Shown one piece after another: positions 30,078-34,768 of a DNA stretch of 34,768 bases. Position 1 is the first letter of the stretch. Each line of letters opens with the position of its first letter. Source of the DNA: Candidatus Babeliales bacterium (lineage in GTDB: Bacteria > Babelota > Babeliae > Babelales > Vermiphilaceae); the NCBI GenBank assembly GCA_035944115.1, contig DASZBJ010000015.1, forward strand, positions 1 through 34,768, given 5' to 3'. A program made the translations under genes and the position numbers. The notes beneath the pieces are model-generated. The model worked only from the letters and a program-made list of their open reading frames with translations, ran no database searches and had not been told where the DNA came from.

Positions 30078-30101
30078 AGACAGCCCTTAATATTACTATT
30101 A

Positions 30102-30142
30102 AAATCAACAAACGCATCCAGACGGAACGCGTTTGTTGATTT
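30102..30142 (-). terminator. Hairpin terminator of the peptide gene 30169-30249
   Basis: AAATCAACAAACGC pairs perfectly with GCGTTTGTTGATTT (14-bp stem, 13-base loop). On the minus strand it ends in TTGATTTTAAT, 27 bases after the peptide stop codon, so the peptide gene forms its own short transcript before nth. Confidence 0.65.
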
Positions 30143-30168
30143 AACGATTTTATGCTAACTTTGAACTA

Positions 30169-30249
30169 TTAGCATCCTGGAGGATAGTCTCCTAAAAAAA
30201 CTAATACCAAAGAAAGCAACTGAAAAAGAGAAAAACTAAATTTAATCAT
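30169..30249 (-). CDS. 26-residue hydrophobic peptide ending YPPGC, divergent from the receptor-like regulator
   Basis: The ORF starts with ATG six bases after GGGAG and has its own downstream hairpin. The first ~19 residues are hydrophobic (IKFSFSLFQLLSLVLVFL) and the end is GDYPPGC. A second gene at 33274-33348 encodes a peptide of the same design, with an identical 12-nt TTAGGGAGTTTT leader. Both are transcribed away from a paralogous large membrane regulator, with start codons about 86 and 115 bases apart. This position matches short-hydrophobic-peptide genes next to their receptors in Firmicutes. The C-terminal heptapeptide would be the plausible mature signal, possibly modified at Cys. 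A role as signal is inference; a leader peptide or microprotein is the alternative. Confidence 0.6.
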   Translation of the reverse strand: MIKFSFSLFQLLSLVLVFLGDYPPGC

Positions 30250-30302
30250 AAAAAACTCCCTAACAACAACAAGTTTTCAACAGTTAGAACCCGAATTTTC
30301 AG

Positions 30303-30322
30303 TATAATTACCCAACTATAAT
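30303..30322 (+). promoter_or_regulatory. Two overlapping TATAAT boxes upstream of the regulator
   Basis: TATAAT occurs at 30303-30308 and 30317-30322, just before the regulator ATG at 30336. No good -35 box is seen, so activation by a regulator is possible. The second box leaves almost no leader, which would give a nearly leaderless mRNA. Confidence 0.35.
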
Positions 30323-30335
30323 AAATCAACAAACA

Positions 30336-33056
30336 ATGTTAGATCTAATACAATACTTTACAATATTTTTCGAGAGCCCTTACTTATTGTTTACGGTAAC
30401 AACTCTCTTTTTTATATTAAAAATTTATATCATTGCACGACTCGTATCGCAACGATTTGCAAAAACCTATCTCCATCGATCATGGATTTTGCTTATTCTC
30501 GTACTTATTGGATCCGCAACAAGTGATCTTACCTGGATCTTTTACCTTGTTCGCAACTTATGGGTGCCATCAATTCCTTACCCTGCGTATCTATGCATCT
30601 TACGAATAGCATGGGGTATGACTGCTGTTCAGTATCAATCCCTTACACTGTTTTTAGAAAGCCTTGTAGATCAATCAACTCATTTATCGCCCAGACAAAA
30701 AATTTTCACATTCATTAGTTGCTGTTTTTTACTATGGACTATTATCATTGCATGTATAGATTTTAATTGCTCTATACCTACCGATAGAATGCCCATAGAA
30801 TTTCTTATCCGCCAGGTAGAAATCATATATTTATCATATATTTTAATACCCTCAACAATCTGTGTCATTATTTGGAAAACATACAATAGCACCCTGCCTC
30901 GCATACTAAAACAACAAATAAAGGTACTTCTTCCTGCTATTATAATCCCGCTCTGGATTTCTGATATGTTACAAATAACCCCATTTTCAAACCTCATCCC
31001 ATTGTGGGTAACTAATAGTATTGCATCAGTTTGCTTATCAAACATATTTCTCATTGGCGCCATCCATTACTGTACCCGCCGCATGATATCTCTGCGATTC
31101 TTAAATCTCAGAGGGCATGTTGAATCTAAGAAAAAATTCTCATTCGTTGATGGATTCAAACTCATCTTAGAACAGCTTAGTCGCGCTACAACACATGCAG
31201 AACTGCGCCACATTACCCAAACATTATTTAAAGAAGCATTTAATACCCCCCTGCATAAAACAATGCTCTATATCAGACAATCAAAAAAACAGGTACCGAT
31301 CGAATCAATCGTACAAACAGAAACTGATAAATTTCAGTCATTAGTTGAAAGCTTCATTGATACGCATGGACCAGAAATTCTTGAAGAAGGAAAACATGCA
31401 AAAATTTTTATATACGATGAACTAGAATTTAATAACTTTTATGCAAAAACGAAAATGTACAATCCAGTTATTAATTTTCTTGAAACAATTGATGCGGATA
31501 TTTTTATACCCTTGTATGAAAAAAACAACATGATCGGGTATATCATTGTTGAACGCCATGTTCGAAGCAACAGCTTCTATGGGGACACCGAACGAGACGA
31601 AATGCTTGTTTATTCAAGCTATCTCAGCAATATAATATCTCTACTACAAACAAAAAATCTCAATCTTATACTACAACAAGAAAAAGAACTCAAAGAAGAA
31701 CTCTACCACAAAAATCAAGAAATCAATCAATACAAAGAGAGCATCCGCTCATTCATCCGTACGGTAAAAGATAAAGAAATTGGGATTATATTTTATAAAA
31801 GTCGCAACTTTATTTTTGGTAACAAAGCAGCAAAAGAGTTGATTCAAATCAACCTGAACGCCCAAGAAGGACATCCCATTACCAAAACATTAAAAAATGT
31901 TGCACGACAAGTTGAAGAGTATAAAACAGCGATAACGCAATTTACCTTCGACACTGAAGGGAAAAAAATAATTATTTCTGGCATGCCTAATTTAGACAAA
32001 AACAATGTGATCATAACTATCTACTACCCAGAGATATCTGACATTATCAAAAAACAGATTGAACTGCTCAAAGATCCTTCCATGTGGGATTATCTCCTGT
32101 ACTTAGAAACTACTGAGTCAGGAAAACTCATTAATAAGCTCATTCCGAGTTCAAGTGAAACAATACTACAATTTAAAATCGAGCTACTTAAATTGGCCCT
32201 TACGAAAAAGAGTCTTTTACTTGAAATGCCCGATGATGACATAATACCAACAGTAGAAATCATCCATCATATTAGTTTGAGAGAAACATTACACCGATTA
32301 AAACTCCATGGCCCTGTGCAATCAAATGAAACAATAATCAAATTATTTGGTATCAATCCAATCCTCGGCATCAAACAACCTGAACAAGCATTACTTGAAC
32401 AGCTTGATGAAACAGGTACTTTATTTATCGAGAATGTGCATTTACTTGACCTGGAAAGCCAGGAACATCTTGCTGAGTTTTTACAATATGGTCTCTATCG
32501 TCTCTATAAAAGTGATCAAAAAGTACCAAGTACCGCACGAGTTATCTGCTCTACAAATCAAAACTTACAAACATGCATACAAGACGGCACATTCTCAAAG
32601 AATCTTTTTGCTGTTCTAAAACAGACCGCCCTCCACTTGCCATCACTCCTTTCATTACCTGAACAAGAATTATCACTACTGGTTGATGGATTTGCTGAAC
32701 AAATCATCCAAAGCCAGCCTTTGAAAAGCCTACTCGAATTAACACCAACAGAAAAATCTCAGATTGCTCATAACCGCCCGGTTAGTCTGCACGAGCTTAA
32801 AAATAAGGTTCAACTCCTGCTGACGAATAGATCAAAGAAAAATCAGATTTATGATGAAACCAAGTTTGATCCTGCATATCAACTGACAGATCCCCAATTA
32901 ATAGAAGCTGCACGCCTTGGTAAGCATGCCTTAAAAGATCCACGCATTATGACAATATTATGGAACAAATTCAAAAGCCAAGCCAAAATTGCGACATTCT
33001 TGGGGGTAAATCGTTCTTCCATCAATAGAAGATGTAAAGATTATAATTTGCTATAA
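30336..33056 (+). CDS. Seven-segment membrane receptor fused to GAF, PAS-like, decayed NtrC-type AAA+ and Fis-type HTH
   Basis: A 906-residue protein. Seven hydrophobic segments occupy about residues 15-250, followed by a GAF-like domain (about 270-440, with DIFIPLYEKNNMIGYIIVERH), a coiled coil (about 440-475) and a PAS-like region to about 560. Residues about 590-830 align by eye with sigma-54 activator AAA+ domains: GTLFIENVHLL (Walker B region), VICSTNQNL (sensor I), LPSLLSLPEQEL. However, Walker A is replaced (EMPDDDII), the GAFTGA loop is absent and the arginine fingers are lost (FSKNLFAVL). The last ~38 residues form a Fis-type HTH (AKIATFLGVNRSSINRRCKDY). It therefore reads as a membrane-bound one-component regulator without ATPase function. 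There is no clear ribosome-binding site. A divergent peptide gene lies directly upstream. Confidence 0.8.
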   Translation: MLDLIQYFTIFFESPYLLFTVTTLFFILKIYIIARLVSQRFAKTYLHRSWILLILVLIGSATSDLTWIFYLVRNLWVPSIPYPAYLCILRIAWGMTAVQYQSLTLFLESLVDQSTHLSPRQKIFTFISCCFLLWTIIIACIDFNCSIPTDRMPIEFLIRQVEIIYLSYILIPSTICVIIWKTYNSTLPRILKQQIKVLLPAIIIPLWISDMLQITPFSNLIPLWVTNSIASVCLSNIFLIGAIHYCTRRMISLRFLNLRGHVESKKKFSFVDGFKLILEQLSRATTHAELRHITQTLFKEAFNTPLHKTMLYIRQSKKQVPIESIVQTETDKFQSLVESFIDTHGPEILEEGKHAKIFIYDELEFNNFYAKTKMYNPVINFLETIDADIFIPLYEKNNMIGYIIVERHVRSNSFYGDTERDEMLVYSSYLSNIISLLQTKNLNLILQQEKELKEELYHKNQEINQYKESIRSFIRTVKDKEIGIIFYKSRNFIFGNKAAKELIQINLNAQEGHPITKTLKNVARQVEEYKTAITQFTFDTEGKKIIISGMPNLDKNNVIITIYYPEISDIIKKQIELLKDPSMWDYLLYLETTESGKLINKLIPSSSETILQFKIELLKLALTKKSLLLEMPDDDIIPTVEIIHHISLRETLHRLKLHGPVQSNETIIKLFGINPILGIKQPEQALLEQLDETGTLFIENVHLLDLESQEHLAEFLQYGLYRLYKSDQKVPSTARVICSTNQNLQTCIQDGTFSKNLFAVLKQTALHLPSLLSLPEQELSLLVDGFAEQIIQSQPLKSLLELTPTEKSQIAHNRPVSLHELKNKVQLLLTNRSKKNQIYDETKFDPAYQLTDPQLIEAARLGKHALKDPRIMTILWNKFKSQAKIATFLGVNRSSINRRCKDYNLL

Positions 33057-33104: not shown

Positions 33105-33132
33105 GAGGCACACTTTTTAAAAAGTATGCCTC
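33105..33132. terminator. Hairpin between the regulator and the second peptide gene
   Basis: GAGGCACACTTTTT and AAAAAGTATGCCTC form a near-perfect 28-base palindrome with one C-A mismatch. It lies 48 bases past the regulator stop. The minus strand continues CTCTTTCTATT, so it may also end transcripts from the peptide gene. Confidence 0.5.
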
Positions 33133-33273: not shown

Positions 33274-33348
33274 TTAATCGGGTGGGTATCGAAACATTTT
33301 CTTTACAATAACCTGTAATAGGCTGAGAAAGCGCGCATAGAGTAACAT
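33274..33348 (-). CDS. 24-residue hydrophobic peptide ending YPPD, divergent from the second regulator
   Basis: ATG at 33348 follows GGGAG by six bases; the leader TTAGGGAGTTTT is identical to that of the peptide at 30169-30249. The peptide has a hydrophobic N-terminal part (LLYARFLSLLQVIV), two lysines and the end FRYPPD. The YPP motif and overall length match the first peptide, while the flanking residues differ, as expected of a signal specific to its own receptor. It is encoded divergently from the regulator at 33464. No terminator lies immediately after it; the nearest is at 33105-33132. Confidence 0.55.
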   Translation of the reverse strand: MLLYARFLSLLQVIVKKMFRYPPD

Positions 33349-33425: not shown

Positions 33426-33467
33426 ATGAGTTTATCAACGCTTATAAGAAAAATTGATGAAAAATGA
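33426..33467 (+). CDS. 13-codon mini-ORF overlapping the second regulator start
   Basis: ATG at 33426, three bases after CGGAG, opens a 13-residue frame (MSLSTLIRKIDEK) whose TGA overlaps the regulator ATG as ATGA. It could couple translation of the regulator, which lacks its own clear Shine-Dalgarno sequence. The other regulator gene has no such element. Confidence 0.3.
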   Translation: MSLSTLIRKIDEK

Positions 33468-34768
33468 TATATATATTGAATCCTATTAGCGAAATAATTC
33501 GAAGTGATAGCTTTGCACTCACCGTTCTTATCTTATCTTTCACTACAAAAATATATTTATTAAAAAAACTCATTCCGCTAGGACTGACTTCATCGGTAAT
33601 CCGCACTCCATGGTTTCTCTTACTGGGTATTCTTGTGGGCTCTTCATTTGGTGATATTGCATGGATCACGAAATTAATACATAAATTATTCTTTTTTGAA
33701 AAACCTTACGCTCTTGTAATATTTTGGACTCGCATCTCTTGGGCATTTGTCATCATTCAATATCAATCATTCGGATTATTCATCGAAAGCTTTTTTCTCA
33801 AGTCTTTCACTCTCAATAGACGACATACAGCAACCATTCTGTGCAGCGCCATATATTCACTCTATTTTTTTATCATAGCATTTTTTGACTCCAACCTTAC
33901 TGATCTTGCATCTCGAGACTATGCACGGGCGATCTCTGACTCCTCGCTTATGCCATTAGAATTTAAAGCGATACGATATGCTGGATTATTCATGCTTTCG
34001 TTGCATATTATTCCCGGCACCCTCAGTATGATACGGCATCTGTATAAACATCCGCTACCAACATTACTCAAGCGTCAAATTAAAATAATAATATGTTACT
34101 TGTTCGCCCCTTATATTTGTATGGAAGCAATGCTTGCAATACAGTATATAACACCCGCATTCCGACATAACTTCACTGCAATAGTTGCCGTTTCTACAAT
34201 ATTTATCACATATGCAATTGCGTATTGCATGCATACTGTTATCAAACTACGATTTTTGAATGCAACACCACACGTACAATCACCATATAGCGATAATTTT
34301 ATTAATAACTTTAAAACATTATTAGAAGCATGCAGCCATATAACAAAAAAATCAGAACTTACCGAGCTCACGAAAAATTTCTTCGAACAAACTTTTGCCA
34401 TTAATCAAGCAGACACGACGTTTATTATCTGTTCTGATGGCGTCTATTCAAATAGTTTAAAAGCTGTGCCAACCCCTCATCCTACAGAGATCCTGATCAA
34501 ACAATTTTTATCAAACACTCTTCAAGCAGACTATTTAAAAAAACAGAAAATTTTACTGTATAATGAGATAGAATTTTCACAATTTTATCAAGATACTCCA
34601 CTGAACACTGCAGTTCTTACATTCTTAAAAACTCTTAATGCAGAAATGTTTATTCCGGTGTATCAGCACGGCATAGTGATTGCGTATATTATCATTAATC
34701 GCCAAAAAAATGGTCTGTATGGTAACCACAAGCAGGATGAAATAATTGTATTTGCTCGCTATCTTAAA
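33464..34768 (+). CDS. Second seven-segment membrane receptor-like regulator (3' end outside window)
   Basis: A paralogue of 30336-33056; 435 residues are visible before the window ends. Shared positions include GSSFGDIAWIT (GSATSDLTWIF), ISWAFVIIQYQSFGLFIES (IAWGMTAVQYQSLTLFLES), LLKRQIKI (ILKQQIKV), YNEIEFSQFYQ (YDELEFNNFYA) and AEMFIPVYQHGIVIAYIIINRQ (ADIFIPLYEKNNMIGYIIVERH). Seven hydrophobic segments span about residues 12-265, then a GAF-like domain begins near residue 290. The start ATG is the first after an in-frame stop at 33458. The PAS, AAA+ and HTH parts, if present, lie beyond the window. Confidence 0.8.
   Translation, partial: MIYILNPISEIIRSDSFALTVLILSFTTKIYLLKKLIPLGLTSSVIRTPWFLLLGILVGSSFGDIAWITKLIHKLFFFEKPYALVIFWTRISWAFVIIQYQSFGLFIESFFLKSFTLNRRHTATILCSAIYSLYFFIIAFFDSNLTDLASRDYARAISDSSLMPLEFKAIRYAGLFMLSLHIIPGTLSMIRHLYKHPLPTLLKRQIKIIICYLFAPYICMEAMLAIQYITPAFRHNFTAIVAVSTIFITYAIAYCMHTVIKLRFLNATPHVQSPYSDNFINNFKTLLEACSHITKKSELTELTKNFFEQTFAINQADTTFIICSDGVYSNSLKAVPTPHPTEILIKQFLSNTLQADYLKKQKILLYNEIEFSQFYQDTPLNTAVLTFLKTLNAEMFIPVYQHGIVIAYIIINRQKNGLYGNHKQDEIIVFARYLK

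Follow-up and report, generated by a model that had tools for sequence, protein, structure and literature searches.

A candidate peptide-pheromone system with a one-component seven-helix receptor-regulator in Candidatus Dependentiae

Does a 26-codon gene that stands divergently beside a large membrane-anchored regulator encode a peptide signal for that regulator? The question is raised by the window analysed here, a stretch of 34,768 nucleotides that is an entire contig (C15) of a 1.5 Mb genome of the phylum Candidatus Dependentiae (TM6/Babeliales). An earlier note, made from the sequence alone, had proposed such a signal–receptor pair. A reading frame of 26 codons carries little weight by itself, and its significance has to come from comparison across genomes. 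On the evidence below, we consider it quite likely that the two divergent genes encode an autocrine or paracrine peptide pheromone and the one-component seven-helix (7TM) membrane receptor-regulator that senses it.

Two peptide–receptor pairs in the window

Both reading frames of the proposed pair were recovered exactly as described, divergent and 86 bp apart (Table 1). The ribosome-binding site claimed for the small gene, peptide gene A, corresponds to AGGGAG on its 5' side, and the hairpin terminator claimed for it was found as a strong hairpin, though with a modest T-tract. The earlier note overlooked a second pair, peptide gene B and receptor B, the latter running off the contig. On the minus strand, no gene lies 3' of peptide gene B before the receptor A 3' end. 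The B-type peptides look amphipathic more than classical signal peptide-like, and their membrane segment is weak.

Table 1. Features of the two pairs and of the related peptide array. Positions are those of the window unless another locus or protein residues are named.
Feature	Position	Strand	Description
Receptor A	30336..33056	+	906 aa
Receptor A, 7TM	residues 15-252		Seven membrane helices in model
Receptor A, GAF-like	residues about 270-440		Predicted from model
Receptor A, coiled coil	residues 442-479
Receptor A, PAS-like	residues 483-563		Predicted from model
Receptor A, degenerate NtrC-type AAA+	residues about 567-835
Receptor A, Fis-type HTH	residues 853-903		Most conserved block
Receptor B	33464..34768	+	N-terminal 435 aa, 7TM and GAF-like; runs to contig end
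Peptide gene A	30169..30249	-	26 codons, MIKFSFSLFQLLSLVLVFLGDYPPGC; hydrophobic N-terminal segment, Pro-Pro tail
Hairpin directly 3' of peptide gene A	30096..30145	-	Intrinsic-terminator-like; folded stretch 30088-30150, -23.2 kcal/mol, z -7.0
Divergent intergenic region A	30250..30335	.	86 bp; extended -10-like AGTATAAT for receptor
Peptide gene B	33274..33348	-	MLLYARFLSLLQVIVKKMFRYPPD; basic residues ahead of Tyr-Pro-Pro
Hairpin 3' of peptide gene B	33105..33132	-	Terminator-like, 12-bp stem, between B and receptor A 3' end; z -6.5
Four-peptide array, locus L008 (contig C21)	7709-8516	-	Tails KMFRFPPG, KMFRFPPS, KMFRYPPA, KMFRFPPQ

Further copies lie elsewhere in the genome. Contig C21 ends in a third receptor (C) with four tandem peptide genes ahead of it, whose cores (FIVKKMFR[FY]PP) are nearly identical and whose last residue differs (Q, A, S or G; the copy in the window has D). 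At one end, contigs C16 and C29 each hold the C-terminal half of a B-type receptor. Since the contig breaks (at the window end and in C16, C21 and C29) fall inside a nearly identical GAF-coding stretch, the number of full receptors is hidden by the assembly. It should also be noted that three tandem paralogous small secreted-looking proteins of 116-134 aa are encoded beside the peptide array (L008, 6039-7441).

The pairing recurs across the phylum

Of 101 genomes of the phylum, 67 encode the receptor, and two or three copies in tandem are frequent. As a strict test of pairing, we scored a divergent ORF with an ATG start, 18-110 codons long and at <=450 bp, that holds a hydrophobic 12-mer and Pro-Pro in its last 12 residues. 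Such an ORF stands beside 54 of 93 receptors, compared to 0.18 expected from dinucleotide shuffles, and the same test was passed at 0/93 receptors on the other strand and at 1/93 in the next 450 bp. For the named loci, which were fetched separately and share species with the first set, 42 of 69 receptors passed compared to none of 343 other genes in the same loci. Because the criteria were fixed after the first examples had been seen, the argument rests on these controls and not on the raw count. Together the shuffles, the opposite strand, the neighbouring DNA and the other genes rule out a chance small ORF. The peptide ORF is thus conserved next to orthologous regulators, as the proposal of the earlier note implies. 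When the start codon and hydrophobicity rule were relaxed, 68 receptors had a Pro-Pro peptide, while beside some receptors (e.g. L041, L046 and L082) no peptide gene was recognisable.

Using an alignment as the query of genome contigs we retrieved 61 loci; a single-protein query retrieved none. These loci belong to Dependentiae or, in a few records, carry other labels on probably misassigned MAGs, and no relatives were found in viral contigs. As judged from sequence, the pair recurrently lies between nth/thrS and a xerC-like recombinase with a penicillin-binding protein; nth is often near it and in the window lies downstream of peptide gene A on the same strand. That the pair keeps to one chromosomal neighbourhood is consistent with its vertical descent in the phylum, accompanied by losses and duplications. 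Among the neighbours compared across loci, no exporter, protease, immunity or peptide-modifying gene is conserved beside the pair. Two receptors and two peptides are also present in isolate Noda2021, which was cultured in Vermamoeba vermiformis. In one genome a third receptor (L044, G004:C5:189575-192232) has one in-frame TGA flagged in the matched stretch.

The small genes are constrained as proteins

Among the 68 Pro-Pro peptides, the third base of the Pro-Pro codons varies freely (CCT, CCA or CCG). This genome has five paralogous cores, that of peptide B and those of its four paralogues on contig C21; synonymous changes account for 10 of their 14 variable sites, compared to 21% expected under neutrality (p = 6e-5). 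Purifying selection therefore acts on the peptide core, and the substitution patterns carry the protein-coding constraint expected of the proposed peptide gene. The suggestion that the mature signal could be the C-terminal segment GDYPPGC stands only in part. A Pro-Pro tail is conserved, but its usual form is Pro-Pro followed by one to four residues (one to three in most of the 68 tails) and not YPPGC itself, and some clades have other repeated motifs.

Relatives also encode longer precursors with tandem cores (DDFPPMG, DDFPPMG and DDEFPPMG; three copies of QCPP; three of KPGPDVPSF; five of the CPTPPxRY type), and at L064, L076, L054, L091, L058 and L034 secreted precursors repeat the presumptive core two to five times in tandem. 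Tandem repeats of this kind are typical for processed secreted signals, and they speak against the small protein being a leader peptide or a permanent subunit in the membrane. Elsewhere Pro-Pro has been lost but a secretion-type ORF is kept at the same place, as in the three tandem genes of L092 ending in SCVKKG and the copies of L071 ending in PFPF; divergent secretion-type ORFs without C-terminal Pro-Pro also occur at L083 and L095-L097. The non-Pro-Pro tails of these deep clades suggest different signal chemistries.

A 7TM receptor descended from NtrC-type activators

The AlphaFold model of receptor A (71 sequences, pLDDT 85) contains seven helices where the earlier note had counted seven membrane segments, and the DNA-binding end that it had described is a Fis-type HTH. 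It had overlooked two further domains, one PAS-like and one a degenerate sigma-54 activator. The GAF-like and PAS-like assignments come from secondary structure of the model and are confirmed by no Pfam family. Modelled alone, the 7TM domain reached a pLDDT of 92. Basic residues lie on its predicted inner side (net charge +12.1 inner, -1.4 outer), suggesting an N-out/C-in topology. The domain is fast-evolving, while the HTH beside it is nearly fixed. Its profile had no sequence match in the PDB. Foldseek comparison with class A GPCR folds gave a best E of 1.5e-3 and TM-scores of about 0.5-0.6, which is sub-threshold; this weak resemblance of the model could reflect over-representation in the PDB and is taken as a lead only.

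The C-terminal half is where the earlier label 'NtrC-like' needs to be divided. By descent it is correct: PF00158 matches receptor A (3.1e-11) and all 40 receptors scanned, Sigma54_activat families are the only ones consistent across those 40 in Pfam, Foldseek matches of the C-terminal half include NtrX, DmpR and PspF, and the HTH is of the Fis type. Functionally it is not. Where GAFTGA would be expected, after LFG and before the GTLF strand, no stretch resembling it is evident. The Walker A region also looks degenerate, and RpoN was detected in none of 95 genomes of the phylum, with a positive control. As both the sigma-54 contact loop and RpoN are missing, the receptor is NtrC-type by descent only, and a functional NtrC-type activator working with sigma-54 is ruled out.

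There are precedents for such a loss. Like the receptors, the NtrC-family proteins TyrR, DhaR, HupR and VpsR retain AAA+ and Fis-type HTH domains and have lost the sigma-54 contact motif, and homologues without GAFTGA (TyrR, DhaR and HupR) use sigma-70 (PMC3162934). The present case differs from all four in that the whole phylum is without RpoN. We know of no member of this group with an input domain resembling a 7TM peptide receptor.

Peptide tails co-vary with the membrane domain of the receptor

For 62 pairs, dissimilarity of the tails correlated with distance in the 7TM domain (r = 0.41), and less with distance in the GAF-like region (0.29) or the C-terminal half (0.22). In a partial Mantel test that controlled for the C-terminal half the correlation with the 7TM domain was retained (r = 0.36, p = 0.0005), while the reverse partial was not significant (r = -0.02, p = 0.62). 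The tails therefore co-vary with the membrane domain, as the earlier note had supposed they might, although the peptide gene adjoins the 7TM-coding end, so linked inheritance or gene conversion of the 3' end could cause part of the effect.

The two receptor types show the same relation. A basic residue stands two positions before Pro-Pro beside 7 of 9 B-clade receptors compared to 2 of 59 others (Fisher p = 1.3e-6), and A-type tails are acidic or neutral. The B-clade receptor is usually the second in tandem, and A and B occur in the same genomes. Receptors B and C of this genome diverge most strongly in the 7TM domain, where they are 73% identical, compared to 89% in the GAF-like region. The idea that outer loops and tails are complementary in charge was also considered and rejected, as A and B receptors showed no difference in outer-loop net charge (p = 0.42).

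Proposed mechanism and alternatives

In the mechanism that we propose, the small gene would give rise to a precursor with an N-terminal hydrophobic segment for export or membrane insertion and, at its C-terminus, a short signal that is usually x-Pro-Pro with one to four further residues. After entry of the precursor into the membrane, its tail would be exposed or released outside. Since no exporter or protease is linked to the pair, the cell would have to rely on general Sec export and on signal peptidase or intramembrane proteolysis. We infer that the 7TM receptor encoded by the divergent gene is bound by the tail on its outer face, and that binding is relayed via the GAF-like module, the PAS-like module and the coiled coil so that the degenerate NtrC-type AAA+ domain is reorganised. 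The Fis-type HTH would then control transcription, whether up or down, with the housekeeping RNA polymerase, as there is no sigma-54. A phosphorelay would not be needed, as the signal would reach the HTH within the same protein. Targets would include the receptor's own short divergent intergenic region, for which autoregulation is likely, and a presumed regulon, perhaps as a switch that responds to density or confinement within the protist host. For the phylum as a whole, we lean towards a common peptide-pheromone language of obligate intracellular Gram-negative-type bacteria, in which a 7TM receptor of an undescribed family would itself be the transcription factor, through a repurposed sigma-54-activator domain working without sigma-54, and in which precursors would become diverse through tandem repetition of the core and through gene arrays.

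It is conceivable, though we judge it unlikely, that the small protein is not released and acts in cis as a membrane partner of the 7TM receptor, a regulatory subunit like MgrB with PhoQ, so that there is no cell-to-cell signalling. Pairing and covariation would be expected equally, the compact forms resemble one hydrophobic helix with a short tail, and the lack of a linked exporter or protease would be natural. However, some precursors have three to five tandem cores and a single receptor can stand beside an array of paralogous peptide genes, both of which better fit a processed, secreted signal, and the weak membrane segment of the B-type peptides is a poor match to a membrane subunit.

Two further readings are far less likely. 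Pro-Pro motifs slow ribosomes, and with most tails ending shortly after this motif and nth often nearby (here downstream on the same strand), the ORF could be a regulatory leader or arrest peptide that stalls ribosomes near its stop and controls a co-transcribed gene such as nth. Both peptide genes, however, have strong hairpins on their 3' side, peptide gene B lacks a downstream gene on its strand before the receptor A 3' end, Pro-Pro occurs repeatedly within precursors and in some clades has given way to other motifs, and the tail varies with the 7TM domain of a receptor that is divergently transcribed; we regard this reading as highly improbable. The peptide is equally improbable as a small membrane toxin or bacteriocin-like product with the receptor as its sensor or immunity regulator. 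Short peptides that are hydrophobic, or amphipathic and basic, can act on membranes, and rapid diversification fits antagonism, but no immunity or export gene is recurrent beside the pair, the A-type tails are not basic but acidic or neutral, covariation is with the 7TM domain of the receptor, and the locus context is conserved and apparently vertically inherited. A secreted pheromone with its own receptor-regulator thus remains our preferred explanation.

Relation to known peptide-signalling systems

The pheromone system proposed here would work like peptide quorum sensing yet lies outside the Rgg-SHP, RNPP, ComX-ComP and Agr families. With streptococcal Rgg-SHP it shares a short hydrophobic peptide gene divergent from its regulator, a C-terminal signal and several divergent copies per genome. 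Rgg, however, is a TPR regulator of the cytoplasm that responds to peptide taken back into the cell, whereas the regulator here sits in the membrane with its 7TM domain and has an AAA+ domain of the NtrC type; Pfam gave no TPR or HTH_3 match in the receptors, and the HTH is C-terminal, not N-terminal as in Rgg/RNPP. ComX-ComP, ComD and AgrC-type systems resemble it in combining an extracellular peptide, a polytopic membrane receptor and peptide/receptor co-diversification, with release and binding here predicted from sequence. ComP, ComD and AgrC are histidine kinases with separate response regulators, whereas this receptor has its own DNA-binding domain, and no kinase domain (HisKA or HATPase) was consistent in the Pfam scan of 40 receptors. 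In addition, a peptide-modifying enzyme (ComQ or AgrB) adjoins ComX-ComP and Agr, but none stands beside the pair here. The earlier note was therefore right that the receptor domain order differs from Rgg-SHP and ComX-ComP. Tandem core copies in some secreted precursors, together with a 7TM receptor, also recall yeast alpha-factor-type precursors, but no sequence relation was shown and the class A GPCR fold match is weak.

We did not find this system described in the literature searched (preprints and most subscription journals were outside its scope). Few members of the phylum are in culture, Chromulinavorax destructans among them. Quorum sensing has been reported absent from C. destructans (PMC6561590), and Babela massiliensis has been credited with only five transcription regulators (PMC4378268). 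If the proposal is true, reduced intracellular parasites would have a means to gauge their own number or their confinement within a protist host, and a one-component 7TM receptor-regulator would be added to the known types of peptide signalling.

Intergenic regions

The hexamer AGTATA occurs in 39 of 65 homologous intergenic regions, and the extended -10-like element of region A lies ahead of many receptors. Shortly after it, at 30280-30335 and in homologous regions, an A-TCAATA-like element directly precedes many receptor start codons in place of a clear Shine-Dalgarno site. No palindromic operator or dyad common to the intergenic regions was found. A dyad of the B-type region, TTGCTACCATTGCAACA, recurs exactly in the genome only at the two B-type loci.
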